From IMG/VR virus record IMGVR_UViG_3300031884_000100, positions 1-29,602 of that record: a stretch of 29,602 nucleotides of DNA. One strand, written 5' to 3'. Of this stretch, positions 2,771 through 23,182 are shown piece after piece (position 1 is the stretch's first letter; every line of letters begins with the position of its first letter). Under the pieces are notes generated by a model that was given only the letters and a program-made list of their open reading frames with translations, was not told the origin of the DNA and did not search any database. A program made the translations under genes and the position numbers. The stretch comes from a virus.

Positions 2771-3505
2771 ATGGCCTACGCGTCACAAACTGGAAGAGCT
2801 AGAACAAATCCCAGTGACCCAAATGCCCACGCTATCTGTGACCGCTGTGGATTTCGGTACAATTGGATTGATTTAAATTGGCAGAATGAGTGGCGCGGTG
2901 CGTCTCTCATGAACATCCGCATTTTGGTTTGTCGTCGGTGTTTAGACACGCCTCAAGAACAATTACGCGCCATTGTTGTACCTGCTGACCCGCTGCCTAT
3001 CATCAATGCGCGAGTTCAAGACTTTGCAATAGCTGAGACTAATTACCAGACCATCACTCAGCTACCTGTTTACGATCCGACAACCGGCATTCCAATTCCG
3101 GGAACGACCACGCTTGTCACCCAAGACGGGCGCAATCTCGCCACACAGGAAACGGGACCGCCCACTGGGCTAACGCAGTCTGCTATTATGCCGTTGCAAG
3201 GCAACGTTCATTATGGCGTTTGTCTAAATCTGCTTTCGGTTACTGCGAACGGCACGACAATCATCACCGTGACTTGTTCGTCGCCGCACGGACTTTCTAC
3301 GAACGGACAGATTGCAGCGGAGGGCCTGTCTAACAACAAAGCGGATGGCTTCTATAGTGTGACGGTGCTTGGGGCCATGTCGTTTACCTACATGACAAAT
3401 ACCGTTATACCGAGTGGATCACTTTTGACAGCTACCGCATTGATTACAACTGCTTCTGTCGGGTTGCCGTTGCAATTCGATCAGATACCGCAGACGGGGA
3501 TTTAG
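2771..3505 (+). CDS. Virion protein with N-terminal zinc ribbon
   Basis: A 244-residue protein. The N-terminal 60 residues hold a four-cysteine zinc-ribbon pattern (C23-x2-C26 and C54-x2-C57) with the conserved-looking segment LVCRRCLDTPQEQLR. The remainder is beta-rich, with a TVTCSSPHGLSTNGQI stretch like the repeat modules of phage tail proteins. Similar proteins with an N-terminal CDRCGF ribbon sit near head-tail connector genes in many phages, and their exact role is not established. It lies between two homing endonuclease genes. Structural role is inferred from neighbours; the zinc site is read directly from the sequence. Confidence 0.75.
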   Translation: MAYASQTGRARTNPSDPNAHAICDRCGFRYNWIDLNWQNEWRGASLMNIRILVCRRCLDTPQEQLRAIVVPADPLPIINARVQDFAIAETNYQTITQLPVYDPTTGIPIPGTTTLVTQDGRNLATQETGPPTGLTQSAIMPLQGNVHYGVCLNLLSVTANGTTIITVTCSSPHGLSTNGQIAAEGLSNNKADGFYSVTVLGAMSFTYMTNTVIPSGSLLTATALITTASVGLPLQFDQIPQTGI

Positions 3506-3511
3506 ACTTAG

Positions 3512-4180
3512 ATGCAAGCATGTTCTAAATGCCATGTTGAAAAGCCGCTGGAGGATTTTTACCAGCGTAAAAATGGTGCGTACAGAAAGGATTGCAAATC
3601 CTGCTTTACTCAAAAGACTAAAGAGTGGAAAGAAAAAAACGCGGACAAAATGCGTGAATACTGGCGTCTTTATTGCTTAGAGGCATACCGTAAGAATCCT
3701 GAAAAGGGCAAAGAAAAGGCTCGTCGTTATCGCGCGGCAAACCCAGATCGAGTTAAAATTACGTGGGCTGACAACAATAAAAAAAGATGGGCAAACATTA
3801 CGCCGGAAAAAAAAGAACAAGAAAAGAAAAGGCTACGTATATTTTACGAGAAAAATAGAGAGAAACAGTTAGCCAGAACTAGCGCAGCAAAAAAGCGCAA
3901 TAGGGGTCATTATACTGCTTACCAAAACGCCAGACGGGCACTCCAATTGTCTGCTTCTCCGCCATGGCTTTCTGCAATTCAGCTAAACCAAATCGCTGAA
4001 ATGTATGATGTTGCCGTAGCGTGCAACATGCAGACTGGAATTAAACATCACGTAGATCACATTGTTCCTTTGCGCGGAAAGGCAGTGCGTGGACTTCATG
4101 TTCCATGGAATTTACAAGTAATTCCTGCGATTCAAAATCACCGAAAACACAATAAGCTTGTCGAAGAGTATTTACGTTGA
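3512..4180 (+). CDS. HNH homing endonuclease with N-terminal zinc finger
   Basis: A 222-residue free-standing endonuclease. The N-terminus has a C4-x2-C7 ... C28-x2-C31 zinc finger. A long Lys/Glu/Arg-rich helical DNA-binding spacer follows (about residues 35-135). The C-terminal HNH nuclease starts at about H179 (HHVDHIVPL) and continues through HVPWNLQVIP to a final N/H-rich segment, giving the metal-binding His/Asp/Asn set of the family. The start is six bases after the previous virion gene's stop. The last four bases overlap the TTG start of the next gene, whose Shine-Dalgarno (GAAGAG) lies inside this gene. It is a paralogue of the gene at 15570-16247. Confidence 0.87.
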   Translation: MQACSKCHVEKPLEDFYQRKNGAYRKDCKSCFTQKTKEWKEKNADKMREYWRLYCLEAYRKNPEKGKEKARRYRAANPDRVKITWADNNKKRWANITPEKKEQEKKRLRIFYEKNREKQLARTSAAKKRNRGHYTAYQNARRALQLSASPPWLSAIQLNQIAEMYDVAVACNMQTGIKHHVDHIVPLRGKAVRGLHVPWNLQVIPAIQNHRKHNKLVEEYLR

Positions 4181-5394: not shown

Positions 5395-7509
5395 ATGCCT
5401 CACGCCTCAGTTCGTGTAACGCCGGGAATCAATACTACCGAAACACCTGCTTTGAACGAGGCGGGGATTTCATCGAGCAATCTAATCCGCTTTATGCCTG
5501 ACACGGTATTGGGCGGGATAACCCAAAAGTTGGGCGGGTGGACAAAATTCTATCCCAACACAATAGCTGCGATTGTACGCGCGCTATGGGCTTTCGAGGA
5601 CACCAACAGTCAGGCGCACCTTGCACTGGGTACGCAGAATATTGGCAGTTCTGGGCAGGCACAACTTGCCGTCATAACAAACAATAGCTTGTCGGACATC
5701 ACGCCACGTGACACGGCAGATAATATTGCACTTGCAGTTGCAACTACGTCTGGAAGCGCCAGCGTCGTTATCACAGACACAACCACGGGAAATATCACCA
5801 ATTACGATAGCGTCTATATCCCGGCGCACATCAGTATTGGCGGTATTGTTCTGTTTGGCCTTTATGCCTGCGACCCTGATGGCTATATCAGTGCAACTAG
5901 CTATACCGTGTTTTCACGGGACATTCTGGGAAACTTACTGCCTGCAACATCAAGCTCTTCATCGCCCGTTGTAGCAAAATTTACGACGACAAATACAACG
6001 TCCACCGTCTCTGTTCTACTGCCAAATCATGGGTATGTTGTTGGAAGCACGTACCCTGTTTTGATACCGACTACGGTAGGTGGAATTGCATTCTACGGAA
6101 ATTACATCGTTCAGTCGGTAACTGACGCAAGCAATTTTGTTATTATTGGCACATCGACTGCCACGTCATCCACCACTGGCTATATCAATGGCGGAAATGC
6201 GCAGTACATTTACAACTTCGGCGTAGGGGCTATTCCATCAGGTACTGGTTACGGTATCGGCGGATATGGCTCTGGCGGCTATGGCAGTGGCACTGCCATT
6301 GTCCCGTCCACAGGAACGCCCATAGGGGCAAACAATTGGACGCTGGATAACTGGGGGCAGGTTCTTATCGCTTGCGCTATAGAGCCCGCAGAAACGCTCT
6401 CATCCACGATTGCGCCTTACCAACCGATATACTTTTGGGACTCAACCGCCGGGGCACCGACAGCAGAGGTAATTCCGCAGGCCCCGCCATTCAATGACGG
6501 CATATTTATCGCTATGCCGCAGCGTCAGATTGTAGCCTGGGGATCGACATTCACGGGCATCCCCGATCCGCTCTTACTGCGCTGGTGCGACGTAAACAAC
6601 TACGGGTCATGGATTGCGCTTCCCACAAACCAAGCCGGTTCCTTTCGCCTTCCGAAAGGATCGAAGATCGTTGGGGGTCTTCAGGTTCCGCAACAGGCGC
6701 TTATATGGACCGATATTGGCGTGTGGTCGATGCAGTACATCAATCTGCCTCTAGTGTATTCCTTCAATGAAATTGGCTCTGGCTGCGGCCTTATCGCCCG
6801 CAAGGCGGCTGCATCCTATGGCGGCATCGTCTATTGGATGGGGCCTTCGCAGTTTTATTCTCTTACCTCAACAGGCGTCACGCCCGTTCAGTGTCCTGTT
6901 TGGGATGTAATTTTCCAAAACCTAGACCAAACAAATTTGGATAAAATTAGGGTCGCGGTAAATTCACGGTTTGGGGAGGTCGCATGGTACTATCCAACGA
7001 TTAGTAGTGGGGGCGAGGTCAACGCCTATGTGAAGTACAATACACTTCTGGGCCAGTGGGACTTCGGCAGCCTTGGGCGTTCAGCATGGGTGGACCAGTC
7101 AGTGCTAGGACCGCCGATAGGCGCTGACCCAAGTACGCTATATCTCTATCAGCATGAAACATCGCCAGATGCGGATGGTCAGCCACTTCTAGCCAGCTTT
7201 CAAACTGGATATTTCGCCATGGCAGAGGGCGACCTAAAGACGTTTGTGGATCAAGTGTGGCCTGACATGAAATGGGGTTATTACGGTGGTTCGCAGAACG
7301 CGACCGTGAACATCACATTCTATGTGGCTGATTATGCGGGACAGACACCAACAGTTTATGGGCCTTATTCCGTAACCCAAAGCAGCACATTCTTTACGCC
7401 GCGCTTTCGTGGCCGCCTAGTATCAATTGGAGTGGCGAGTAACGATACTGGCTCATGGTGGCGGCTTGGAAACATTCGCTATCGGTATAGCCCTGACGGG
7501 AAATTCTAA
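5395..7509 (+). CDS. Tail hub protein, P22 gp10-like
   Basis: A 704-residue beta-rich protein beginning at an ATG flush with the previous stop. The N-terminus carries a TPGINTTETPALNEAGISSSNLIRF segment followed by a GGWTKF region. A mid-protein Gly/Tyr/Ser-rich stretch (about residues 280-300, GYGIGGYGSGGYGSG) links to repeated blade-like segments such as PQRQIVAWG, LRWCDVNNYGSW and QQALIWTDIGVWSM. This arrangement is like the beta-propeller tail hub (P22 gp10, packaged-DNA stabilisation) family. Its position after the connectors, and a length somewhat above gp10 (about 470 residues), suggest a tail hub with extra domains. The structural role is very likely; the gp10 label is moderately supported. 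Confidence 0.65.
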   Translation: MPHASVRVTPGINTTETPALNEAGISSSNLIRFMPDTVLGGITQKLGGWTKFYPNTIAAIVRALWAFEDTNSQAHLALGTQNIGSSGQAQLAVITNNSLSDITPRDTADNIALAVATTSGSASVVITDTTTGNITNYDSVYIPAHISIGGIVLFGLYACDPDGYISATSYTVFSRDILGNLLPATSSSSSPVVAKFTTTNTTSTVSVLLPNHGYVVGSTYPVLIPTTVGGIAFYGNYIVQSVTDASNFVIIGTSTATSSTTGYINGGNAQYIYNFGVGAIPSGTGYGIGGYGSGGYGSGTAIVPSTGTPIGANNWTLDNWGQVLIACAIEPAETLSSTIAPYQPIYFWDSTAGAPTAEVIPQAPPFNDGIFIAMPQRQIVAWGSTFTGIPDPLLLRWCDVNNYGSWIALPTNQAGSFRLPKGSKIVGGLQVPQQALIWTDIGVWSMQYINLPLVYSFNEIGSGCGLIARKAAASYGGIVYWMGPSQFYSLTSTGVTPVQCPVWDVIFQNLDQTNLDKIRVAVNSRFGEVAWYYPTISSGGEVNAYVKYNTLLGQWDFGSLGRSAWVDQSVLGPPIGADPSTLYLYQHETSPDADGQPLLASFQTGYFAMAEGDLKTFVDQVWPDMKWGYYGGSQNATVNITFYVADYAGQTPTVYGPYSVTQSSTFFTPRFRGRLVSIGVASNDTGSWWRLGNIRYRYSPDGKF

Positions 7510-8836: not shown

Positions 8837-9613
8837 TTGAACGATTACCGTTTTTATGTCTACGAGCATTGGCGTCCTGACCGGGACGAGTGCTTTTACG
8901 TGGGGAAAGGAAAGGGCGGTAGGGCTCACGATATGCATCGTGGCCGTAATCGGTTTCATAAATTTATTCAGGCAAAGCTATCCCGTATTGGTATGGCAGT
9001 AGATGTTCGCCTAATTGCTATGTGCCTAACTGAAAACGATGCCTTTGCCTTGGAGCGTGAGCGTATTTCATTTTGGCGTGCTGATGGCGTTGACTTGGCC
9101 AACATTACTGATGGTGGTGACGGCCCAAGCGGAAGAAAGCACACCGAAGAGTGGAAGTTGGCCAATAGCGAGAGAATGAAAGGGCGCAAACCTTCTGCTG
9201 AAACACGGGCGAAAATGTCTGCTGCCGCTATTGGAAATACTAAGGGGCTTGGAAAGAAAAGACCGGAAGAAGCATCGCGCATAACTGCTGAAAAAAATCG
9301 CGGTAAAAAGCGCAGTGCTGAAGTAAGGCTGCATTTAAGTGAAATAAGAAAAGTAAACCCTACGTTTAAAGGGCGTCATCATACTGCTGAATCAATTGCT
9401 AAGATAAAAGCTCCGCAAATTGGTCGGCCAAAGTCAGAAGAGACTAAGGCTAAGATGCGAAAGCCCAAGAGCGAAGAACATAAGCGTAAGATTGCCGCTA
9501 TTCGCCTTGGAAAGAAACATACTCCGGAAACTCTTGCGAAACTTTCGGACGCGGTAAAACGCGGATGGGAAAATCGCAGGCGCAAAGCCCAGCTAAAAAT
9601 GATGGATCAATAA
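8837..9613 (+). CDS. GIY-YIG homing endonuclease with NUMOD3 repeats, TTG start
   Basis: A 258-residue endonuclease. The GIY-YIG core appears near the N-terminus (FYVYEHWRP then CFYVGKGKGGRA), with an E-x-E-R-I-x-x-W segment and NITDGGDGPSG. It is followed by at least five NUMOD3-type DNA-binding repeats (SAETRAKMS, SAEVRLHLS, TAESIAKIK, SEETKAKMR, TPETLAKLS). The TTG start at 8837 is required: the next in-frame ATG (codon 33) lies beyond the nuclease motif. A GGGG segment precedes it by seven bases. The gene is inserted between the acetyltransferase and the giant S74 protein without extra DNA. It shares domain order with 2128-2769 but has a longer NUMOD3 array. Confidence 0.88.
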   Translation: MNDYRFYVYEHWRPDRDECFYVGKGKGGRAHDMHRGRNRFHKFIQAKLSRIGMAVDVRLIAMCLTENDAFALERERISFWRADGVDLANITDGGDGPSGRKHTEEWKLANSERMKGRKPSAETRAKMSAAAIGNTKGLGKKRPEEASRITAEKNRGKKRSAEVRLHLSEIRKVNPTFKGRHHTAESIAKIKAPQIGRPKSEETKAKMRKPKSEEHKRKIAAIRLGKKHTPETLAKLSDAVKRGWENRRRKAQLKMMDQ

Positions 9614-13314: not shown

Positions 13315-15570
13315 ATGGCTGAACCGCAAGACGTAGATAACGGGTTGCTCTCGCAATTAAATGGCGCAAGCCAGAGTACGCCGGTCGCGTCGTCCACTGA
13401 CGATATTGATACCGGACTTCTTCACCAGTTAAATTCACCGACACAAACACCAGATTCTGGCGTTGGGAATGGCGCGAAATCTTCACGCCACAACGCACCG
13501 ACGCGCTTTCAACAGTCTGTGTCTCCAGCCGATCAAGGTGATCCCGAACTATCTTGGGCCGACACTGGAAAGCAGGCGATTGCTAATTTTCTCCCATCAC
13601 TAGGCGGCGTCGGAACCTCTATGTTCGATGCTGTACTTCACCCAATTGATACGGCAACAGCGTTGGGCAACCTTGGCAAAGGGGCGTTTTCTCAGGCTGC
13701 TGGCGCTATAGGGATACAGCAAGACCCTGTTGAGAAAAAGCAAAATGAAGCTCTGATTTCTGCGCTGGAAGATCACTACAAGACAACATACGGCTCGGTT
13801 AAAGGGCTAAAGAAGGCGTTGGCGACCGATCCGGCCAGCGTAATGATGGATGCCGCCTCAATCATTCCTGGATTTGGCGAAGCGGCGGACGCTGCTGGGC
13901 TTGTAAAAACAGCAGGCGTTATCAACAAAGTCGGAAGTGCGGTCGATCCTATAGCTAATGCTATGCGCGTAGCAAAACTTCCCATGAAGGTAATCGCGCC
14001 TGTTGCGAGACAAGCTAGCAGCATTACTACTGGCCTTCCGGCTTCAGTTTTTAAACTAGCTACCGCAGTAGGGTCACATCCCGATCCAGCCGTTGGCGCG
14101 GCTTATGCAAAATTTGTGACCGGCCAAGGAGATGCTACTGAATTTCAGAGGGCGTTGCAGGGTACGATAGGGTCAATCAAGAAAGATGATAGTGACGCCT
14201 TCATGGCACAAAAGGGGCCGATGGCGCAGTTACCAGTCAATTTGACAAAAACCAAGCAGGCGTTAGCGGACGCAATCACCAAGGCCAATATGGGGGCTCA
14301 GGTCGGTCCGGTTCGCGGTGCAGCCATGAAGGCGATCAATGATGCCTCCGATATGGTCAATAGCGTGTCATCAAATCCCACGCTGGAGAATGTTGATGCT
14401 CTTAAGCAGCAACTTTGGCAGCTTAAGAATTTTCACCCGGAGGTTGCTGACAATTATATAAACGGTATCTATCACGGTGCGCGTGATGATCTGGTGGAGG
14501 CGGACCCCGCTTATGCTAAACTGATGTCCACATATCAGGATGCCATGCAGAATGCGAACGATCTGACAAAAACCCTTGGTGCGGGAAAAAATACTGCCGC
14601 TAGCGCGGCGCTAGTCAAGAACCTTCGTGCGATGAAAACTGGAACGGGCGAAAACTTACTTTCTCAGGTTATGGCAAAAGACCCCACCATTGGCGGAATG
14701 TTGGCCGGTCAGGCGTTGCACCCATGGCACGCTGGCGGGCGGTCCATGATCGAGGCCATGCTCGCCGCCCCCGCTGCGGGAGCCGTGTTCAGCCATCCTG
14801 GCGTTGCCGCTGCGGCTGTGCCAGCTTCTCTTATTGCGTCCTCGCCACGGATTGCGGGCGCGGTCAATTACGGAGCCGGTGCGCTGGGCAGAAAACTTGA
14901 ACAGGGCGCACCGCTACCCAAGGCTGCTTACTACGCCGGTCGAGTAGAACAAGAGCAAGACACCCCCCAAGGTGATTCTGTCGCGCCAAGCCCGCTTGCA
15001 TCCAATGGCAGTCTTCCGCGCAATGTCAGAAACAACAACGCCGGTAACATCATTGATAGTAAATTTGCGCGTAATCAGCCGGGATATGTTGGTTCAGATG
15101 GAGAGATGGCACAATTCGATACTCCGGAACACGGGCTTGACGCTACCAAATCTCTCCTAAAAATCTACGCTTCAACGGGGCGAGATACTATCAATAAAAT
15201 TGTCGATAGCTGGGCACCAGCCAGCGACAAGAGAAATTCGCCGCAAGCGCGAGAGGATTACAAGTCTTATCTATCTAATCGTCTTGGGATTGAGCGCAAT
15301 CAGCACATAGACACTAGCGATGACGGTTTTCTTACAAAGGCTGCAAAGGCTATGGCTCATTTTGAGGGTGATAGGGCCGCAGCGACGGGTGGCCGTATAA
15401 TGCGTGCTTCTGGCGGAAAGGTTCGTAAGACACACGAAGAGCTTGTTCAGCGCCTTATGAACATGGCCAAGCAGGCAAAGCGCAAAGAGGATGATGGCAC
15501 TAAGCCGCTGCTTAATGTTCCTGACAATGCTATTGTCAAAGCATTAGACGTGGCACAGCAGGCAATCTGA
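13315..15570 (+). CDS. Large virion protein with C-terminal lysozyme-like domain (RNNNAGNI)
   Basis: A 751-residue protein. The start at 13315 (GGGGG seven bases upstream) is preferred over an earlier in-frame codon inside the previous gene. The N-terminus has two copies of D-x-GLLxQLN (residues 8-16 and 32-40). Residues about 130-550 are Ala-rich helical with hydrophobic stretches, as in ejection proteins. Residues about 570-690 match the phage structural protein domain that starts RNNNPGNI-like (here RNNNAGNI at 572) and continues GYVGSDGEMAQFDTPEHGLDA, thought to be related to peptidoglycan-active enzymes. The C-terminus (ATGGRIMRASGGKVRK... then PLLNVPDNAIVKALDVA) resembles the ends of other phage ejection proteins. 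It probably enters the cell envelope during DNA delivery. The enzymatic role is inferred. Confidence 0.75.
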   Translation: MAEPQDVDNGLLSQLNGASQSTPVASSTDDIDTGLLHQLNSPTQTPDSGVGNGAKSSRHNAPTRFQQSVSPADQGDPELSWADTGKQAIANFLPSLGGVGTSMFDAVLHPIDTATALGNLGKGAFSQAAGAIGIQQDPVEKKQNEALISALEDHYKTTYGSVKGLKKALATDPASVMMDAASIIPGFGEAADAAGLVKTAGVINKVGSAVDPIANAMRVAKLPMKVIAPVARQASSITTGLPASVFKLATAVGSHPDPAVGAAYAKFVTGQGDATEFQRALQGTIGSIKKDDSDAFMAQKGPMAQLPVNLTKTKQALADAITKANMGAQVGPVRGAAMKAINDASDMVNSVSSNPTLENVDALKQQLWQLKNFHPEVADNYINGIYHGARDDLVEADPAYAKLMSTYQDAMQNANDLTKTLGAGKNTAASAALVKNLRAMKTGTGENLLSQVMAKDPTIGGMLAGQALHPWHAGGRSMIEAMLAAPAAGAVFSHPGVAAAAVPASLIASSPRIAGAVNYGAGALGRKLEQGAPLPKAAYYAGRVEQEQDTPQGDSVAPSPLASNGSLPRNVRNNNAGNIIDSKFARNQPGYVGSDGEMAQFDTPEHGLDATKSLLKIYASTGRDTINKIVDSWAPASDKRNSPQAREDYKSYLSNRLGIERNQHIDTSDDGFLTKAAKAMAHFEGDRAAATGGRIMRASGGKVRKTHEELVQRLMNMAKQAKRKEDDGTKPLLNVPDNAIVKALDVAQQAI

Positions 15571-16247
15571 TGAAGCAATGTACGAAGTGCAAAACTGAAA
15601 AGGCGTTAGACGAATTTCCAAAACGGAAATCCGCCGCTGATGGCCGCCGCAATGAATGTTGCGCATGTACTTGGGAAGCAAAACAAGCTTGGAACGAAAA
15701 CAATAAGTCTAGGATTGCCGCTTACAACAAGGTGTGGGCTGCGAAAGACCCTGAGAAGACCAAGGCATCACAAAGGGCTGCGCGAGAACGGCTTGACCCT
15801 GAAAAAGTGAATGCGTGGCATAGACAATGGTATGCAAAAAATAGGGAAAAATGTCTTGCCAGAAACAAAGAGTGGCAAAGCCAAAATACAGCATGGCTAA
15901 AAGAATACGTTGCGCGAAATGAAGAAAAGGCAAAGTCGCGTCGGCAAAAATGGGAAGAAAATAATAGAGGCAAGGTTAGAGCAAAAGCTAGAAACTATCA
16001 GGCAAAAAAGCGTGGGGCGATGCCTTTGTGGCTAACTGCCATTCAACGCGCTCAAATATTAGAAATGTACGATGTAGCGGTTGCTTGTGGCACTCAGACT
16101 GGCGTTGAGCATCACGTCGATCACATCATTCCGCTACAGGGAAAGGCAGTAAACGGATTACACGTTCCCTGGAATCTTCAAGTCATTCCAGCTTTTGACA
16201 ATCTAAGTAAGAACAACAGAATTGTTGAGGTGCACAATGGTATCTAG
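15570..16247 (+). CDS. HNH homing endonuclease with N-terminal zinc finger
   Basis: A 225-residue paralogue of the gene at 3512-4180. It has an N-terminal C-x2-C zinc finger (CTKCKTEKALDEF, with CCAC as second half), then a long Lys/Asn/Glu-rich helical spacer with repeated N-K and W residues. The C-terminal HNH nuclease starts at about H181 (HHVDHIIPLQG), followed by HVPWNLQVIPAF and NNR. The two proteins share the almost identical segment AEMYDVAVAC/LEMYDVAVAC before the nuclease. The ATG overlaps the preceding stop (ATGA), and the gene's end overlaps the start of the tail-fibre gene by 11 bases, giving the fibre gene its RBS. It is a mobile gene placed at the left edge of the receptor-binding locus. 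Confidence 0.87.
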   Translation: MKQCTKCKTEKALDEFPKRKSAADGRRNECCACTWEAKQAWNENNKSRIAAYNKVWAAKDPEKTKASQRAARERLDPEKVNAWHRQWYAKNREKCLARNKEWQSQNTAWLKEYVARNEEKAKSRRQKWEENNRGKVRAKARNYQAKKRGAMPLWLTAIQRAQILEMYDVAVACGTQTGVEHHVDHIIPLQGKAVNGLHVPWNLQVIPAFDNLSKNNRIVEVHNGI

Positions 16248-17079
16248 CTGGACCACTCAACGGCATATCGAAAAGCCTGCTAATGGCGATGATGTTGGAA
16301 ATTGGAATGTCCCGGTAAACGCAGACTGGGACATTATTGATGCGTGCCTTGGCGGACTAACGACTTTGAATGCAACAGCTGCGTCTGGCGTTGTTACGTT
16401 GACGGTCGCACAGTATAGATCGCCAATCATAGAAATAACTGGCACATTGACAGCAGCCGTAAACTATCAATTGCCATCTGGTATTGGCGGCTTGTGGTCT
16501 ATATTCAATAATACGACCGGCGCGTTCACAATCACATACTCCAACGCCGCCGCTGGCTCTACTGTCACACTGGCGCAGGGATACAGTAGCATTGTAGTTT
16601 CTGACGGGACGAATATCGGATTCGGTAGCACCCTTCCAGTCAGTGCGGCTGGCTCCAATACTCAGATTCAGTACAACAATAGCGGTGTCTTTGCCGGTTC
16701 ATCAAACCTCACTTGGAACGGATCGATGTTACAGGTAGGCGGTGCATTTAGTGCATCGGGAAATGTCACGGGGGCTGTCGGTACGTTCTCTAGTCTGTCC
16801 ATTTCCGGCAATATCTCCGGTGCTACCGCTGGTTTTAGCGGCAATGTCACCGTTGGTGGAACGCTTGGTATCACGGGCACTCTGACAGGCGCTCTAGGCG
16901 CGTTCAGCAGCCTAACCGTGAGCGGAACCTCGGCTTTCTCTACAAACCCAACCTATGCAAGTCATCCCATGTGTTCGGTAGTTTCCGGTCAGGCTGGCTA
17001 TGCCGGGGGCATTGGCTATGGATCATCGGCAGTATCTGGAACACTTGCAGTTGGCGAAATTTATTTTCAAACGGTCTAA
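16237..17079 (+). CDS. Tail fibre-like protein
   Basis: The ATG at 16237 has GAGG seven bases upstream, inside the HNH gene; an in-frame TTG at 16222 is less likely. The 280-residue protein begins with VSSWTTQRHIEKPANGDDVGNWNVPVNADWDIIDACLGG, a segment typical of phage fibre N-termini that dock to the baseplate or hub. A long Ser/Thr/Gly/Ala-rich beta region follows, with GTLT/FSSLSISGNISG-like short repeats resembling fibre shaft repeats. The C-terminus is Tyr/Gly-rich. It probably binds or carries receptor-binding proteins. Family identity is not certain. Confidence 0.72.
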   Translation: MVSSWTTQRHIEKPANGDDVGNWNVPVNADWDIIDACLGGLTTLNATAASGVVTLTVAQYRSPIIEITGTLTAAVNYQLPSGIGGLWSIFNNTTGAFTITYSNAAAGSTVTLAQGYSSIVVSDGTNIGFGSTLPVSAAGSNTQIQYNNSGVFAGSSNLTWNGSMLQVGGAFSASGNVTGAVGTFSSLSISGNISGATAGFSGNVTVGGTLGITGTLTGALGAFSSLTVSGTSAFSTNPTYASHPMCSVVSGQAGYAGGIGYGSSAVSGTLAVGEIYFQTV

Positions 17080-17781
17080 ATGCCCATCTTTGTTGGAACG
17101 GGAACAAACAAGCAGATACAAGTCGCTACCATTGGTATTGGTGGCGGCAATAAGACCATTTTGCAGGGAACGATAGGAACGGCATCCGGTAATAAAAATA
17201 TCTTCTCGTCTTTCACACCGTACACTGACACGTTTACGGGCGGCAGCGGAACGGAATTAGTCCCAACAAATGCTTCTAAAGTTGTCGTAACGGTTGATGG
17301 CGGCGGTGGTGGCGCTGGTAAGGGAACCGTCCTTGGCGGCGGTGGTGGCGGTTCTGGGCGCGCAGTAAAAACAATTAGTCTTACGTCATCAGACTGGGGT
17401 GCGAGCCTTTCCTATAGTGTTGGCGTTCCTGGCAATGGCAAAACTGGCGCAGCCGGTATAGGCGGCGGTGGTGGCATAAGCACAGTAACTGGCACCTTGA
17501 CGGCTGGTAGCGTTTCTATGACTGCCAATCCTGGCACTGGTGGTGGCACCACAATGAGTTCTAACGGCTCTGGTGGCTCAGCCACAGGCGGCGACACCAA
17601 TACATCTGGTAGTAATGGCTCTGCGGGATCGGGTGGTAATGCGGGCTCTGGAGCCCTTGGCGCTGGTCCTGAGAATGGCGCTGGTGCCGCTCCGGGCGCT
17701 GGCGGTGGTGGCGGATCAGTAAATGACGCCGCTGACGGCGGCAATGGTGGCAATGGACAGATTTCTTTTGCGTGGAGTTAA
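17080..17781 (+). CDS. Glycine-rich adhesin-like virion protein
   Basis: A 233-residue protein beginning flush with the fibre stop. A beta-rich N-terminus (residues 1-70, MPIFVGTGTNKQIQVATIG) is followed by about 160 residues with very high glycine content, including GGGGGAGKG, GGGGGGSG and GGGGGISTV blocks, alternating with Ser/Thr/Asn-rich strands. Polyglycine-rich sandwiches occur in tail-tip adhesins of phages such as the gp38 group and in the glycine-rich domain of many fibre-tip proteins. Its place directly after the fibre gene, and the ATG of the following HNH_3 gene one base after its stop, support a fibre-tip receptor-binding role. Sequence repetition at DNA level (GGCGGTGGTGGC) makes it prone to recombination. 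Confidence 0.7.
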   Translation: MPIFVGTGTNKQIQVATIGIGGGNKTILQGTIGTASGNKNIFSSFTPYTDTFTGGSGTELVPTNASKVVVTVDGGGGGAGKGTVLGGGGGGSGRAVKTISLTSSDWGASLSYSVGVPGNGKTGAAGIGGGGGISTVTGTLTAGSVSMTANPGTGGGTTMSSNGSGGSATGGDTNTSGSNGSAGSGGNAGSGALGAGPENGAGAAPGAGGGGGSVNDAADGGNGGNGQISFAWS

Positions 17782-17782
17782 T

Positions 17783-18250
17783 ATGACTAAATCCATGATT
17801 GAAAAACTTTATACCAATGTTTCATTAGTTGGTGACTGTTTACTTTGGAACGGCGGGAAAAATAAAAAGGGGTACGGCGTCGTCTGGGATGAAAACCAAA
17901 AGGTTGTTGGCGTTCACCGTGCGGCCTTCAAAGCAATGAATGGAGAAATTCCTGCGGGGGCGTATGTCTGCCATTCCTGTGATAATCCAAGCTGCATAAG
18001 ACCAGATCACTTATGGCTTGGAACAGCTAAAGAAAATACCTTGGACATGGTTTCCAAAGGCCGTTGGAAAAGTCCGCCACATTATCTTGGTGAGATATCT
18101 CCAAGGGCAAAGCTGGCAAATTCTGATGTTATGGAAATTCGCCGATTGCTAAAATCAGGTGTCTTGGACACCGAACTGGCAAGAAAATACACAGTGAGCA
18201 AGGCTCAAATATCTAAAATCAAAATGAACAGGGCGTGGCAGTCAGTGTGA
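17783..18250 (+). CDS. HNH_3 homing endonuclease with C-terminal helix-turn-helix
   Basis: The ATG at 17783 follows the adhesin stop by one base, and a GGAG element lies a few bases upstream; longer upstream extensions are internal to the adhesin. The 155-residue product shows the HNH_3 (I-HmuI-like) core: a VVGVHRAAF segment, then VCHSCDNPSCIRPDHLWLGTAKENTLDM, which provides the conserved H-x-C-D-N-P-x-C-x-x-P-x-H-L pattern. The C-terminus (RAKLANSDVMEIRRLLK...SKAQISKIKMNRAW) is a helix-turn-helix DNA-binding tail. It belongs to a different endonuclease family from the others in the window. With 15570-16247 it brackets the fibre and adhesin genes. Confidence 0.87.
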   Translation: MTKSMIEKLYTNVSLVGDCLLWNGGKNKKGYGVVWDENQKVVGVHRAAFKAMNGEIPAGAYVCHSCDNPSCIRPDHLWLGTAKENTLDMVSKGRWKSPPHYLGEISPRAKLANSDVMEIRRLLKSGVLDTELARKYTVSKAQISKIKMNRAWQSV

Positions 18251-18312
18251 CATTTTTCAGCATTAGGATATAAGGTTGAAATGCGGTGCGCCGCGAAATG
18301 GGGTTTAGACAA

Positions 18313-19005
18313 ATGAAAAACTTTAGACTATTGACTGCTATCGCTATTGCGATTTTGCCGTCCGCCGCATATGCACAGTCCCAGCAGGGCGTAATTCCTG
18401 GATTTATAGCTCCAGCCGGAATAGATGGATGTCCATCTAGTAGTCCGTGCTTCGTCCCGTATTCCGCCACATATCCGCTACCAACTACTCCGTCTGGCTC
18501 CGGAACTGGAAACGTCAACATCACCCAAGTTGGCGGCAATGCTGTTCTAACTGGTGCGGGAGCAACTGGAACTGGATCGCAGCGTACAACTGTAGCACAG
18601 GATGCAACTACGGTGGCGGGTTCGGCTCCGGGCACAGCGGGAACGCCTAGCACTAATGTTGTTAGCGTGCAGGGTGTTTCTGGCGGGACGCCGCAGCCGG
18701 TTACGTCAAGCCCCGGATCGCGCACCATCGTCCCGCTAGATGTTTCCACTGTGACGACGGGCGGTACCGCTGTTACGGCGCTGACGGCTGGCCACAGAAC
18801 GGCTGGCGGCTTCCTGCTCAATCCAATTGGCGCGACTATCAATCTCTGCATCAATGAGCAGGGTACAGCATCGGGAACAACTTCATCTGGCGCGCTTACC
18901 TGCATTGTTCCGGGCCAGACATATAATCTCACGCCTGCCGCTGGTGCTGTATCGGTAATTACCTCGGATTCGTCGCATCCGTTTTCCGGTCAGGGGCTGA
19001 ACTAA
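18313..19005 (+). CDS. Fibre-like protein with Sec signal peptide
   Basis: The ATG at 18313 (GGGG eight to nine bases upstream) opens a 230-residue protein with a classical signal peptide: MKNFR, a hydrophobic core LLTAIAIAILPSAA, and a cleavage site AYA-QS at about residue 22. The mature part has four cysteines in two pairs (CPSSSPC near the N-terminus; C...C around LCINEQG...LTCIVPG). It also has the phage fibre-type segment VNITQVGGNAVLTGAGATGTGSQRTTVAQD and ends SSHPFSGQGLN. Such beta-rich fibre repeats are common in tail fibres, but a signal peptide is unusual. The stop overlaps the next start by one base (TAATG). A secreted or membrane-associated virion protein, or a lysogen surface protein, are possible roles. 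Confidence 0.68.
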   Translation: MKNFRLLTAIAIAILPSAAYAQSQQGVIPGFIAPAGIDGCPSSSPCFVPYSATYPLPTTPSGSGTGNVNITQVGGNAVLTGAGATGTGSQRTTVAQDATTVAGSAPGTAGTPSTNVVSVQGVSGGTPQPVTSSPGSRTIVPLDVSTVTTGGTAVTALTAGHRTAGGFLLNPIGATINLCINEQGTASGTTSSGALTCIVPGQTYNLTPAAGAVSVITSDSSHPFSGQGLN

Positions 19006-19877
19006 TGAGAAAGATACTGTTCGGAATTGCGGCGTTCTTTGCGCTTTCGATTGCGGCGATTGCGCAACCTTATGGGCCCGGTCCTACTATTCCACCCTGC
19101 ACAGCGTTCGGGACCACTGCTGGAACATGCATCCAAGGGGCTGGCGCGCTGGGCACTCCGACTTCTGGAAACGGGACTAACATCACAAATGTGAATGCCG
19201 CGACGCTTGGCGGCTCCGCTATTGGCACTTCCGGGGCCACGGTCCCGCTGCTCAACGGAGCGAACACTTGGAGTGGAAAAAATACGCTCGGCGGGGTTGC
19301 GCTCGATCCTAGCTGCACGACAACTGGGCCTAGCATCTGTGTTAATTCCAATGCAATTGCGCTAGTTGGCGGGACTTCTGGTTTTGTCTTCTATAATCAG
19401 GCGTTCAACACAACGGAAATGTCGCTGTCAAATGCGGGCGCGCTGGTAACTGCCGGATCGCTAACGATTGGAACCGTAGCGTCATCTACCGGATTGTTTG
19501 TCTGTGAGACAGCAGGTTTGATTTCAAGCGGCATCACAACCTGCGTTGCATCCGACAAACGCGTCAAGAATGATCTAGGCATCGTCACGCCTGAAATGGC
19601 TGTTGCCCGCGTGATGGCGCTCCCAGACGAGCATCGGTTCACATACAAACCAGGATATGGACCAAGCGGCGATCACACCGGCTGGTGGGCGCAGGACATT
19701 GCAAAGAGTTGGCCTGGGATCGTCTACAGAGGCAAACCAACGAAGCTCACGCCGGACGGCGAGCTTTCGATGGACCGGGCAGAAATTGGACCGGACACAA
19801 CCACGGCAGTGAAATGGCTCATTTCAGAAGTCAGAAAGCAAAAAGCCGAAATCTCCAGACTAGAGCGCAGGCATTAA
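19005..19877 (+). CDS. Fibre-like protein with signal peptide and C-terminal S74 chaperone
   Basis: A 290-residue protein starting at an ATG overlapping the previous stop. The N-terminus MRKILFGIAAFFALSIAAIA-QP is a convincing signal peptide. The mature part has six cysteines in three short pairs (CTAFGTTAGTC, CTTTGPSIC, CETAGLISSGITTC), as expected for disulfides formed outside the cytoplasm. Residue 183 begins a peptidase S74 domain (SDKRVKNDLGIV, then HRFTYKPGYG, WWAQDIAKSWP). A final coiled coil (WLISEVRKQKAEISRLERRH) follows, the usual end of trimeric fibres whose chaperone cleaves itself off. It probably is a trimeric fibre or fibre-like surface protein. The signal peptide has no ready explanation for an ordinary virion protein. 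Confidence 0.72.
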   Translation: MRKILFGIAAFFALSIAAIAQPYGPGPTIPPCTAFGTTAGTCIQGAGALGTPTSGNGTNITNVNAATLGGSAIGTSGATVPLLNGANTWSGKNTLGGVALDPSCTTTGPSICVNSNAIALVGGTSGFVFYNQAFNTTEMSLSNAGALVTAGSLTIGTVASSTGLFVCETAGLISSGITTCVASDKRVKNDLGIVTPEMAVARVMALPDEHRFTYKPGYGPSGDHTGWWAQDIAKSWPGIVYRGKPTKLTPDGELSMDRAEIGPDTTTAVKWLISEVRKQKAEISRLERRH

Positions 19878-19880
19878 ATC

Positions 19881-21611
19881 ATGGCATACCAGCCATATTC
19901 ACTCGTTGTTCCGAACACGGTAACGCCGACACAGCCGTATATTCCTTATAACGAAATCCCCGTGGAGGCGTGGGGAGTTGCCGGCGATGCGCAGCAAATC
20001 ACGAATGCGTCGATTACTTCGGGCCAAGCTATCGTATCAGGGCACACATTTGTTGCCGCTGATGTTGGCAAGGTTGCCGTCTTTCTGCGAGCTGGAGCCT
20101 CTGTCTCCGGTGGTCAGCCGCAGACTATCATCACGACCATAACGGGCCTTTCCGGGTCTAACGCTATCATCGGCGTCAATGCGCAGCAGACGCTTTCTGG
20201 CACAGGCATTTTTGTCTGGGGCACCGATGACACCGCCGCGATCAATACCGCGCTTGGCGCGATAGGGCCTAACGGGTGCCTGCTGTTTTCCAAGCCAGGT
20301 TATCTCTTGACCAACACGCTTCAGGTCGGCGGTGGTGGTTCAGTCAACAACGCGAACTGGTGCAACAACATCAGGGGCGCGGGGAACCCCCATATCTATT
20401 TCGCGATTGCTCCACAAAGTCCTTATACGAATACACCGAACTGCTTTGTCCGCCATGCGTATTTCATCGGGACACAGCCGAATCAATACTATGCGATGAA
20501 TCTTCTCGGCGGGTTCACGATGGACTTCATGAACACCGGACTGGATGGTGAAGTCGTCAATGGCGGCTATCGCATCTATGAAGAAAATCTCTTTACTGTT
20601 CATGCCTATCGGAATGATTGCGCGAAGATTGTTGGAAACTCTGATAACATTCAGCAATTCACTTCGATAAATCGCCATGTGAATGAGGCTGGGCTTCACG
20701 CTGAGTTCTATTGGTCAACGTCAAGCGGTGCTGGCTACATAGACGAAATTGCCTATTTCGGTTTCAGCAAGATCGCATGGGGGTTAAACTCCAAGATATT
20801 CAGCGCCACGGCTGGCCTATGGGGGTGTGCTAAATACTGCATCAACGCTGGATCAGGCGCTAACAATTTCATGCAGGGCCATACCTACAATGGCGCGCTT
20901 GATTGGGCGTCTAATAGGTCTGTAGCTGTTGGCTATGGTTCCGATCAGAACCCGTCTGCCGTTTTGTTTGCTGATGGTACTCAGTCCAATGCGCTTTGGG
21001 GTTCAAACGCTGGCGCTATCCTAAACTGTTTCCGTCGCCACATTTACAATAACAATGTGATTGAAGCGGCTTCAACTTCAACTCAAGCGACTGGCGGTAT
21101 GTTTGCCGCTCAAACAACAAATGTTGTTTTAATAGCAATGCAGTTCAACAATATCGAACTGACTGGAGATTGGGCACAGCAGACGGTGAATATCAATTTC
21201 ACTCCTGCCGGTGGCCAAGGGAATATCTTCTCCACACCCAATGCTTCTGGCAACGTCCCCCAGACTCTCTATGGAACTAACATCGTCACGGGCCAGGTTC
21301 TCGCTCAAACGACTTCTGCCAGTGGCCTAGTGAACTTTGGCGGCAATAATAGCAATGAAGTTATAATTACCGGAACGGCTACGGTCATTGTTAACAGTAC
21401 GTCTATTGGCGGCCTGTTTATAATAAGAGACTTGACTAATGGTGGCATGTGTTCAGTTTTGTGGGTCCATGATGGCGGAGCGCCGACAGTAAATGCGGGC
21501 CAAACTACGGGTTTGACATTCACAGATACGTCTAGCGGACTAAAATGTGCAACGACTGGCTCGCCAACTACTAGAACATTGAGTATAGTTTCAATCGGCC
21601 CGAATGTTTAA
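19881..21611 (+). CDS. Tailspike-like beta-helix protein (pectate lyase superfamily)
   Basis: A 576-residue protein. The N-terminus (residues 1-30) is a short docking segment. From about residue 30 the pattern VEAWGVAGDAQQITNASIT...FVAADVGKVAVF...GTDDTAAINTALGAIGPNGCLLFSKPGYLLTNTLQV is the typical start of the pectate lyase / right-handed beta-helix superfamily seen in phage depolymerase tailspikes. The body continues as beta strands with regular Asn/Gly turns. The C-terminus (NNSNEVIITGTATVIVN...) is a beta-sandwich-like trimerisation or binding domain. It probably cleaves or binds surface polysaccharide. No catalytic residues could be assigned by eye. The RBS is weak, so translation is probably coupled to the upstream gene, whose stop lies three bases before. 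Confidence 0.75.
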   Translation: MAYQPYSLVVPNTVTPTQPYIPYNEIPVEAWGVAGDAQQITNASITSGQAIVSGHTFVAADVGKVAVFLRAGASVSGGQPQTIITTITGLSGSNAIIGVNAQQTLSGTGIFVWGTDDTAAINTALGAIGPNGCLLFSKPGYLLTNTLQVGGGGSVNNANWCNNIRGAGNPHIYFAIAPQSPYTNTPNCFVRHAYFIGTQPNQYYAMNLLGGFTMDFMNTGLDGEVVNGGYRIYEENLFTVHAYRNDCAKIVGNSDNIQQFTSINRHVNEAGLHAEFYWSTSSGAGYIDEIAYFGFSKIAWGLNSKIFSATAGLWGCAKYCINAGSGANNFMQGHTYNGALDWASNRSVAVGYGSDQNPSAVLFADGTQSNALWGSNAGAILNCFRRHIYNNNVIEAASTSTQATGGMFAAQTTNVVLIAMQFNNIELTGDWAQQTVNINFTPAGGQGNIFSTPNASGNVPQTLYGTNIVTGQVLAQTTSASGLVNFGGNNSNEVIITGTATVIVNSTSIGGLFIIRDLTNGGMCSVLWVHDGGAPTVNAGQTTGLTFTDTSSGLKCATTGSPTTRTLSIVSIGPNV

Positions 21612-21712: not shown

Positions 21713-22021
21713 ATGTCTGATATCTCACCAAAGCCCGTCGAAGGCTCCGTTGCTCCAGTTGAAGTTGTTTCCATCTGGAAACATCCGATGGTGCTCATCA
21801 CAAGCATCATCGCTGCGCTTCCTCTCATTCTCGCTGCTCTAGTTCAATTGCAGCAGATACCGGGACTTCCGACAAACTGGATGGCTTGGATCGCGTCCGG
21901 CATTAGCGCCATCACCGCTCTGATAACGATCCTTCGCGCCCTTGGGCTTCTTGGCAGTCCGGTAATTACACCGACTGCGGCAAGAAAATTGATTCAATCC
22001 GACCCTGGCGAAAAGGTCTAG
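21713..22021 (+). CDS. Holin-like protein with two transmembrane segments
   Basis: A 102-residue protein with two predicted membrane helices: residues about 24-48 (HPMVLITSIIAALPLILAALVQL) and 55-79 (WMAWIASGISAITALITILRALG). The N-terminus is short and Pro-containing, and the C-terminus is short and charged (ARKLIQSDPGEKV). This is the topology and size of a class II holin, which would form membrane lesions to release the endolysin or collapse the membrane potential. A GAGGAAAA sequence precedes the start by about ten bases. It opens the lysis/membrane cluster after the tailspike. No family assignment was possible, so the function is inferred from topology and place. Confidence 0.6.
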   Translation: MSDISPKPVEGSVAPVEVVSIWKHPMVLITSIIAALPLILAALVQLQQIPGLPTNWMAWIASGISAITALITILRALGLLGSPVITPTAARKLIQSDPGEKV

Positions 22022-22027
22022 TATGCC

Positions 22028-22432
22028 ATGGTCGGCGCAGATGATGTGGAACGGTTCATTGGTGCAATTACCCCGCCACCGGAAGGGAAAGATTCGCGTA
22101 CATGGCGCGTTAATATCAGCATTATCGTTGGAGCCTTAGTCGTGGGAAACTGTTTCCATATCGCGTGGGCTTGCGGCTGGCTGACAATGTTCGGCCTGAC
22201 GGGTTTCGCGCAGGCAAATGACATGAATGACCAGAAACATGCTCTGGCTATATTACAGGCAAACCAGTTGGATTCATCCCTGCTTAATACTCGGCAGCGC
22301 CAGTGCGAAACACTAAACCAGAACAATCCTGATGCGCGGCACTTCGCTACGGAGCGGCTTCAATACCTACTGGAACAGTATAGGCATCTGGTAAGTGCCG
22401 ATTGGCGCATTCCAGAATGCAACGAACTATAG
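22028..22432 (+). CDS. Small membrane protein, possible inner-membrane spanin
   Basis: A 134-residue protein. Residues about 1-25 are polar with EGKDSRTWR; one membrane-spanning stretch follows (about 27-60, ISIIVGALVVGNCFHIAWACGWLTMFGL). A long polar C-terminal region is helical and probably coiled (DMNDQKHALAILQANQLDSSLLNTRQRQCE... up to LQYLLEQYRHLVSADW). A single anchor followed by a helical extramembrane domain fits an inner-membrane spanin. A small lipoprotein gene lies 0.5 kb downstream, but the usual adjacent or nested arrangement is missing. Two cysteines in the tail could form disulfides in the periplasm. Membrane protein is well supported, spanin is a guess. Confidence 0.6.
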   Translation: MVGADDVERFIGAITPPPEGKDSRTWRVNISIIVGALVVGNCFHIAWACGWLTMFGLTGFAQANDMNDQKHALAILQANQLDSSLLNTRQRQCETLNQNNPDARHFATERLQYLLEQYRHLVSADWRIPECNEL

Positions 22433-22441
22433 GGGTTTGTC

Positions 22442-22672
22442 ATGTGGGGCGATATTATAGGCGATGTGATCGACTCCGTTGTAAAATATGGTTTCGATTT
22501 CTTCTCGAAACAAATGTCTAAGAGGTCACTAGTTAGCCAAGGTCAAGCTACCCAGGCCGCAGCTGAAACAGCTACCAGCCTCAATACCGAGACGAAAATC
22601 GCACAGGCGGAAACTGATACAGACCGCTCTGCGGAGGCCATGGAAGTCGCCGCCAAGAATGGGCAGTTCTGA
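22442..22672 (+). CDS. Small coiled-coil protein
   Basis: A 76-residue protein preceded by AGGGGT. The N-terminus MWGDIIGDVIDSVVKYGFDFFSKQ is amphipathic, and the remainder is an Ala/Thr/Gln-rich helical stretch (GQATQAAAETATSLNTETKIAQAETDTD) ending EVAAKNGQF. It is unlike known enzymes. It overlaps the next gene by one base (TGATG). It may be a lysis-cluster regulator or a small virion-associated protein, but no sequence evidence decides. Confidence 0.6.
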   Translation: MWGDIIGDVIDSVVKYGFDFFSKQMSKRSLVSQGQATQAAAETATSLNTETKIAQAETDTDRSAEAMEVAAKNGQF

Positions 22673-22938
22673 TGAGTGTCGTTGTTGGTCTTGATGGCAA
22701 ACAGGTATTTGACGAATTACCGCGCGAAGACACGCCGGAATTTGTTCTGGAAAAACTTCTAGGTCAAATCAAAGACGGCACGGCACACGTTGACCGCCTT
22801 ATCGTGATTGTGGAAGGCTCAATTGGAAGCCAGGATAATCACTATTTCACCCGCGCATCTCTAGCAACAAATTCAGAGGCGTTGGCCCTAACGGTTATTG
22901 GTCAGCGCATTCTGGTGGATGGCATCTTAGATGTTTAA
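22672..22938 (+). CDS. Hypothetical small phage protein
   Basis: An 88-residue protein with mixed alpha/beta character. It begins MSVVVGLDGKQVFDELPRED and has a VDRLIVIVEGSIG strand and an ALALTVIGQRILVDGILDV C-terminus. It starts in an ATGA-type overlap with the preceding stop and overlaps the next gene by eight bases, so it is part of a coupled cluster. No signal peptide or membrane helix is present. The function is unknown. Confidence 0.6.
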   Translation: MSVVVGLDGKQVFDELPREDTPEFVLEKLLGQIKDGTAHVDRLIVIVEGSIGSQDNHYFTRASLATNSEALALTVIGQRILVDGILDV

Positions 22939-23182
22939 ACAAGTGCCCATTGTAGCCCTCATGGCTCTCTACGGCTGCGCTACGCCACCTCCAATCGACG
23001 TTAAGGTTCAGTGCCTACCGATGGTAACTTACACACAAGCGCAAGACACCGAATACGATGCAGAGCTTCGTGCCTTGAAGGCATCTGGGAGATATCCCAC
23101 GACAATTCAGTATCTTGGCGATTTCTACGCCATGAGGAATGCGGACCGCGCCTGCATGTCTGGAACCAAGACAGGAAACTAG
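22931..23182 (+). CDS. Small lipoprotein, candidate outer-membrane spanin
   Basis: An 83-residue protein with a signal peptide and lipobox: MFKQVPIVALMALYG-C16, with L13-Y14-G15-C16 in the lipobox. The mature part starts CATPPP, the Pro-rich start seen in many Rz1-like spanins. It continues with a polar helical region (AQDTEYDAELRALKASGRY) and two more cysteines. The length is close to that of o-spanins, and it sits in the lysis region. It overlaps the previous gene by eight bases. Lipoprotein is well supported; the spanin function is inferred from size, location and Pro-rich start. Confidence 0.62.
   Translation: MFKQVPIVALMALYGCATPPPIDVKVQCLPMVTYTQAQDTEYDAELRALKASGRYPTTIQYLGDFYAMRNADRACMSGTKTGN

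Follow-up and report, generated by a model that had tools for sequence, protein, structure and literature searches.

Candidate exported, disulfide-bonded pairs of fibre-like proteins encoded by tailed phages

Textbook tailed phages fold and assemble their fibres in the reducing cytoplasm. The window analysed here (the whole stretch of 29,602 nucleotides of an IMG/VR record) is a 29.6-kb fragment of a tailed phage of podovirus type and encodes two consecutive fibre-like proteins, ORF1 and ORF2, each of which begins with an apparent Sec signal peptide. This arrangement raises the question of whether the two proteins are exported and, if so, what a phage might do with fibres outside the cytoplasm.

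Two fibre-like genes with predicted signal peptides

The window encodes a P22-type stabilisation protein (5395–7509; 574 relatives in viral contigs, with MW202675.1 as the closest reference record), and its fibre block lies 3′ of the internal virion proteins. In particular, a non-exported tail fibre (16222–17079, plus strand; 285 aa), whose N-terminus is a conserved virion anchor by which the fibre module can be recognised in relatives, is directly followed by a glycine-rich fibre (17080–17781); an HNH endonuclease gene (17723–18250) sits directly 5′ of ORF1 and ORF2; and a third cistron (19881–21611, plus strand; 576 aa) encodes a signal-less protein that is tailspike-like by eye and has no family match. 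Lysis-type genes (21713–23182) are located 3′ of the tailspike-like gene and are set apart from ORF1 and ORF2, which have no muralytic domain, no spanin layout, and no match to a SAR endolysin or spanin family. In the lysis-type block, 22931–23182 encodes a small lipoprotein (MFKQVPIVALMALYGCATPPP) that has the look of an outer-membrane spanin and adjoins 22672–22938. The virion block is broken by three endonuclease genes (8837–9613, 15570–16247, and 17723–18250), of homing endonuclease, endonuclease VII-like, and HNH types.

ORF1 (18313–19005) and ORF2 (19005–19877), both on the plus strand, have the coordinates and the complete Sec-type signal peptides that the sequence-only reading had assigned to them. 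Specifically, ORF1, read from the ATG at 18313 (alternative in-frame starts at 18298 and 18286 yield an identical signal), comprises 230 aa: a predicted signal peptide (18313–18375; MKNFRLLTAIAIAILPSAAYA^QSQQG, predicted cut AYA^QS); and a mature protein of 209 aa with four cysteines (18376–19002), the N-terminal part of which is of a phage structural-protein repeat type (VGGNAVLTGAGATGTGSQR..) and the C-terminal part of which (18709–19002; ~98 aa) is a conserved domain. The ORF1 stop and ORF2 start overlap in TAATG (19003–19007, one shared base), which suggests coupled translation. ORF2 comprises 290 aa: a predicted signal peptide (19005–19064; MRKILFGIAAFFALSIAAIA^QPYGP, predicted cut AIA^QP); a mature fibre-like part (19065–19550) that starts with the recurrent exported N-terminus QPYGPGP; and a C-terminal region (19551–19874) with an S74-type intramolecular chaperone domain and a coiled coil. 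ORF2 matches PHROG tail-fibre families at 1.5e-7 and 6.4e-6. The S74 assignment stands in part: the SDKRVK motif is present, but the match to PF13884 falls short of the curated cut-off (E 0.0089; 16.7 bits vs 22), and the domain is, as judged from its sequence, a divergent one.

The cysteines are paired as proposed, at positions 40, 46, 179, and 197 of the ORF1 precursor and at positions 32, 42, 104, 112, 167, and 180 of ORF2, giving six in mature ORF2. It is only roughly true that the other virion proteins contain fewer cysteines, since the products of 2771–3505 and 3512–4180 have six each, partly as CxxC, and the tailspike-like protein has nine. What distinguishes ORF1 and ORF2 from the other virion proteins is the combination of a signal with an even cysteine count. 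Neither protein has a lipobox, and neither mature protein has a membrane anchor.

Signals were scored with a hand-made rule that asks for a positive n-region, a hydrophobic h-region, and small residues at −3 and −1, and that replaced an earlier, stricter rule that had overlooked clear cases. At the cut-off used (at least 4.25), the rule detects 13 of 16 known E. coli signals, and its background is 0.5–0.8% of 630 long ORFs from other phage loci. ORF1 and ORF2 score 5.3 and 5.4, well above the cut-off, and both present n-, h-, and c-regions and an A-x-A type cut site by this rule. A chance origin of the signals was considered and rejected: none of 630 shuffled N-termini passes.

A recurrent cassette with even cysteine counts

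A profile search with ORF1 returned 36 viral loci, 26 of them distinct besides the window, all on contigs from uncultured viruses, many of which come from a small number of sample series, so that their independence is limited; the same query found no relatives in reference phages. The part conserved in every relative is the C-terminal ~95 residues, in which Cys179 and Cys197 are invariant in 26 of 26 aligned sequences. The full-length ORF1 model is mostly of low confidence outside this domain, and the domain was therefore modelled alone, giving a small beta jelly-roll-like fold (pLDDT 92.6, pTM 0.83). Its Foldseek neighbours, the disulfide-linked Ena endospore pilins and the PM2 spike P1, are weak (probability 0.98–0.99, E 0.03–0.06); they share no sequence similarity with the domain, reach no significant E-value, and belong to other biology. 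The domain occurs in phages of different build, namely the podovirus of the window and a phage with an adjoining sheath gene (L003).

Relatives lacking the hydrophobic N-terminus were sought and none was found: all 25 relatives with an intact 5′ end have a signal-like N-terminus, 21 by the rule and four by eye (L114, L124, L007, and L139, which have an identical layout but score slightly lower or carry Arg in the c-region). The signal sequences are mutually dissimilar, indicating that the type of signal, rather than its sequence, is conserved. Across these dissimilar signals, the predicted cut sites follow one pattern: position −3 is a small residue, position −1 is Ala, and the next residue is in most cases Gln.

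Counting the window, 26 loci have an intact 5′ end, and in 24 of them the ORF1-type gene directly abuts a second gene that carries an export signal, typically sharing 1–4 bases with it; the exceptions are L124, where the exported gene is one further on, and L142. Signal genes cluster around ORF1 (19 of 181 neighbours vs 2 of 170 distant genes, p 1.7e-4). Some partners have Sec signals and others twin-arginine (Tat) signals; several of them, above all the Tat-type ones, were classed by eye because the rule was designed for Sec signals. About eleven partners have a Tat signal, and the RR ahead of the hydrophobic region is invariant in the eight that were aligned. The partner folds are mutually unrelated: an S74 fibre in the window, glycine-rich fibres (L118, L133), a protein of beta-helix tailspike type (L122), a LamG-like protein (L132), a protein with YadA-like repeats (L134), and tail proteins of phrog_5939 (L120, L124, L138), with matches to tail-fibre, tail, and virion PHROGs.

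Mature partner N-termini often read Q-x-x-GP-x-P or similar (QPYGPGP, QPYGPQP, QVGPQP, QVVGPGP, QRLGPQ), at 19065–19085 in the window and at L002 3157, L133 3925, L122 6277, and L132 8345. GP falls within the first 12 mature residues of 12 of 22 partners, vs 6.4% expected, for a motif picked post hoc. A DNA scan for AQPYGPxP gave 19 viral matches, three of which are signal-bearing fibre genes.

Exported disulfide-bonded proteins favour an even number of cysteines (PMC7678975). With the signal removed, the cysteine count is even in 38 of the 39 Sec-type proteins that have any cysteine, vs 91 even and 116 odd among 207 ORFs without a signal from the same contigs (Fisher p 3e-11); signal-less ORFs with a fibre-like composition are 11 even and 28 odd. 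The cysteine pairs of the ORF1 domain are not mutually independent, so that the safer figures are those for Sec-type partners alone (13 of 13 even) and for six complete Sec-type proteins checked afterwards (2, 2, 20, 12, 4, and 4 cysteines; all even). Tat-type partners, by comparison, are 2 even and 6 odd. Tat substrates are expected to be folded before export, and the absence of an even-cysteine bias among Tat-type partners is an internal control for the parity result.

Taken together, the signals, the invariant cysteine pair, the parity, and the co-occurrence of Tat signals strongly imply real export and periplasmic disulfide formation; the relatives thus back the proposal, made for the window, that the two proteins are exported and disulfide-bonded. 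ORF1 and ORF2 appear to constitute an exported fibre-like cassette of tailed phages, and we regard the export and disulfide part of this reading as likely. The weakest alternative is that these are cytoplasmic virion proteins that keep the hydrophobic N-terminus uncut, as a segment that acts on membranes or anchors them in the virion. Hydrophobic N-termini do occur on some virion and ejection proteins, but this reading is very improbable given the cut-site pattern that recurs over dissimilar signals, the sharing of one gene position by Sec and Tat types, and the even-cysteine parity that it leaves unexplained.

Exported pairs are optional in the window's own phage group: among 15 gene maps, most members are without one, indicating that the module is accessory, and it seems to move between phages. 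Members with signal genes include the window, L096/L098 (two signal genes in the matching place, of other make-up), and L026, which has, elsewhere in its genome, a divergent ORF1-like gene (hhalign probability 84%) and a signal-bearing partner. The adjacent signal genes of L096 (10482–12837, minus strand) encode an Asn/Thr-rich protein of 293 aa and an adhesin-like protein of 498 aa with four cysteines each. The anchored, non-exported fibre is short in two pair carriers (285 aa in the window; 352 aa in L091, 3148–4206), vs 455–507 aa in eight pair-less relatives (further loci listed with this comparison are L099, L100, and L102); L096/L098 break this trend, having signal genes plus a full-length 503-aa fibre.

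Possible roles outside the cytoplasm

The sequence-only reading had put forward an unusual assembly route, periplasmic attachment, or an influence on superinfection as candidate consequences of export. We propose the following sequence of events. ORF1 and ORF2 would be made from one message by coupled translation, late in infection as judged from gene position. Both would pass through the host Sec machinery and be cut by signal peptidase, with the partners of other phages going via Tat; both would fold in the periplasm, where each cysteine pair would form a disulfide. ORF2 would probably trimerise and cut itself via its S74 domain, a step suggested by the SDKRVK motif in the sequence only. The small, conserved ORF1 protein, with its jelly-roll-like fold and one invariant disulfide, would act with its variable partner, an exported fibre or lectin-like protein; we infer this joint action because the genes are coupled. 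The pair would build up outside the cytoplasm and be freed at lysis.

For what follows, our leading guess, offered tentatively and by analogy, is that the proteins mask receptors, as Llp of phage T5 does: the mature fibres would bind the host's own surface receptors, so that superinfection is blocked and released progeny are spared trapping on debris. Masking would explain why phages that differ in build share one ORF1 domain. The lack of a lipobox or membrane segment in the mature proteins, a difference from Llp, counts against stable anchoring in the envelope.

A possible but less probable role is that of late-joining virion parts, which would be folded and disulfide-bonded in the periplasm, dock on virions leaving at lysis, and supply receptor-binding tips that cannot be oxidised in the cytoplasm. 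Pick-up at lysis would explain both the fibre folds of the exported proteins and the short anchored fibre of the window. Consistent with it, fibre architecture is retained (S74, glycine-rich fibre, beta-helix tailspike, LamG, tail PHROG matches), the genes lie in the fibre module, the anchored fibre is short in the window and in the pair-bearing L091, and the GP-containing mature N-terminus could be a docking peptide. On the other hand, the conserved virion-anchor domain of the non-exported fibre at 16222–17079 and its relatives is absent from mature ORF1 and ORF2, the spread of the ORF1 domain over different phage builds is not what a specific virion dock would predict, L096/L098 combine signal genes with a full-length fibre, and the GP motif was chosen after looking. 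We regard as doubtful the general form of this proposal, in which some tailed phages export adsorption parts through Sec or Tat, a two-component complex is oxidised in the periplasm, and its attachment to virions waits until lysis. The remaining probability falls to other surface roles or to no export.

A further reading, lysogenic-conversion cargo, in which secreted proteins would alter the lysogen surface or biofilm and be unrelated to phage adsorption, is improbable. Such cargo is common, lambda Lom sits between fibre genes (PMC12309495), and the two L096 signal genes are adhesin-like and Asn/Thr-rich in make-up. However, no ORF1 relative was found in a pattern scan of GTDB contigs or in 385 alphaproteobacterial genomes (the latter search run without a positive control), giving no sign of a prophage form; moreover, the partners are of fibre and tail types, and the pair is located inside the late fibre block rather than at an edge of the genome.

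Comparison with known systems and origin of the signals

Exported phage proteins, such as Llp, Lom, and spanins, are already known, as are pairs of a tail fibre gene and an adjacent assembly-chaperone gene. Like such fibre/chaperone pairs, the cassette has a variable fibre gene, a small conserved neighbour, and overlapping ends; unlike them, both members are predicted to be exported, and the conserved one is a predicted disulfide-bonded jelly-roll-like domain rather than a cytoplasmic chaperone. The C-terminal domain of ORF2, with its SDKRVK motif and coiled coil, resembles the Peptidase_S74/CIMCD tail-fibre chaperone (PF13884), but known S74 phage fibres fold in the cytoplasm, whereas ORF2 bears a Sec signal.

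T5 Llp blocks the receptor, and its gene adjoins the receptor-binding gene (PMC4728585). As with Llp of T5 and BF23, ORF1 and ORF2 are phage-coded, predicted to be exported, encoded beside a receptor-binding gene, and expected to act at the host envelope (PMC4728585); Llp, however, is a small lipoprotein made early, whereas ORF1 and ORF2 are two fibre-like proteins with no lipobox, with paired cysteines, and in a late-type block. Lambda Lom is likewise an exported phage protein encoded among tail-fibre genes (PMC12309495), but is an outer-membrane beta-barrel, whereas ORF1 and ORF2 have no membrane segment and keep fibre domains. Surface-displayed DGR target lipoproteins of bacteria, e.g. Legionella (cited in PMC6199706), are exported, ligand-binding, and similar to phage adsorption proteins, but these lipoproteins are bacterial. 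The usual view of phage proteins runs counter to the ORF1/ORF2 pattern: according to a survey of phage DGR adsorption-type proteins, these are without the signal peptides found on the bacterial ones (PMC6199706).

A literature search, in which subscription journals were thinly covered, found no report of Sec- or Tat-exported, disulfide-bonded phage fibre pairs. Because unrelated viruses share this kind of pair, some of the fibres in the phage repertoire may be produced extracytoplasmically. The recurrence of signal-bearing fibre-like pairs, by two export routes and in unrelated phages, would mean that phages repeatedly gain from extracytoplasmic placement, and the cassette may point to a new step in assembly, or else to a superinfection or receptor-masking strategy that is widespread. 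A signal together with an even cysteine count offers a simple genomic mark for finding more such pairs.

As to origin, a search with ORF2 brought up no viral-contig relatives and a single weak match, to an E. coli phage fibre. The four bacterial homologues retrieved with a Tat-partner profile are all signal-less, and no signal is present in the annotated fibre-region genes of Rhizobium Paso, StenR_269, Azospirillum Cd, and two Bradyrhizobium prophages, reference phages that match distantly in fibre or tail proteins; it thus seems that ordinary tail-protein domains acquired the signals. An S74 search of 142 alphaproteobacterial genomes gave matches in nine, and none of the few ORFs read has a Sec signal. 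In an alphaproteobacterial genome (L171, 409–1800), the S74 chaperone domain is located on a protein whose N-terminus resembles that of a type IV pilin.
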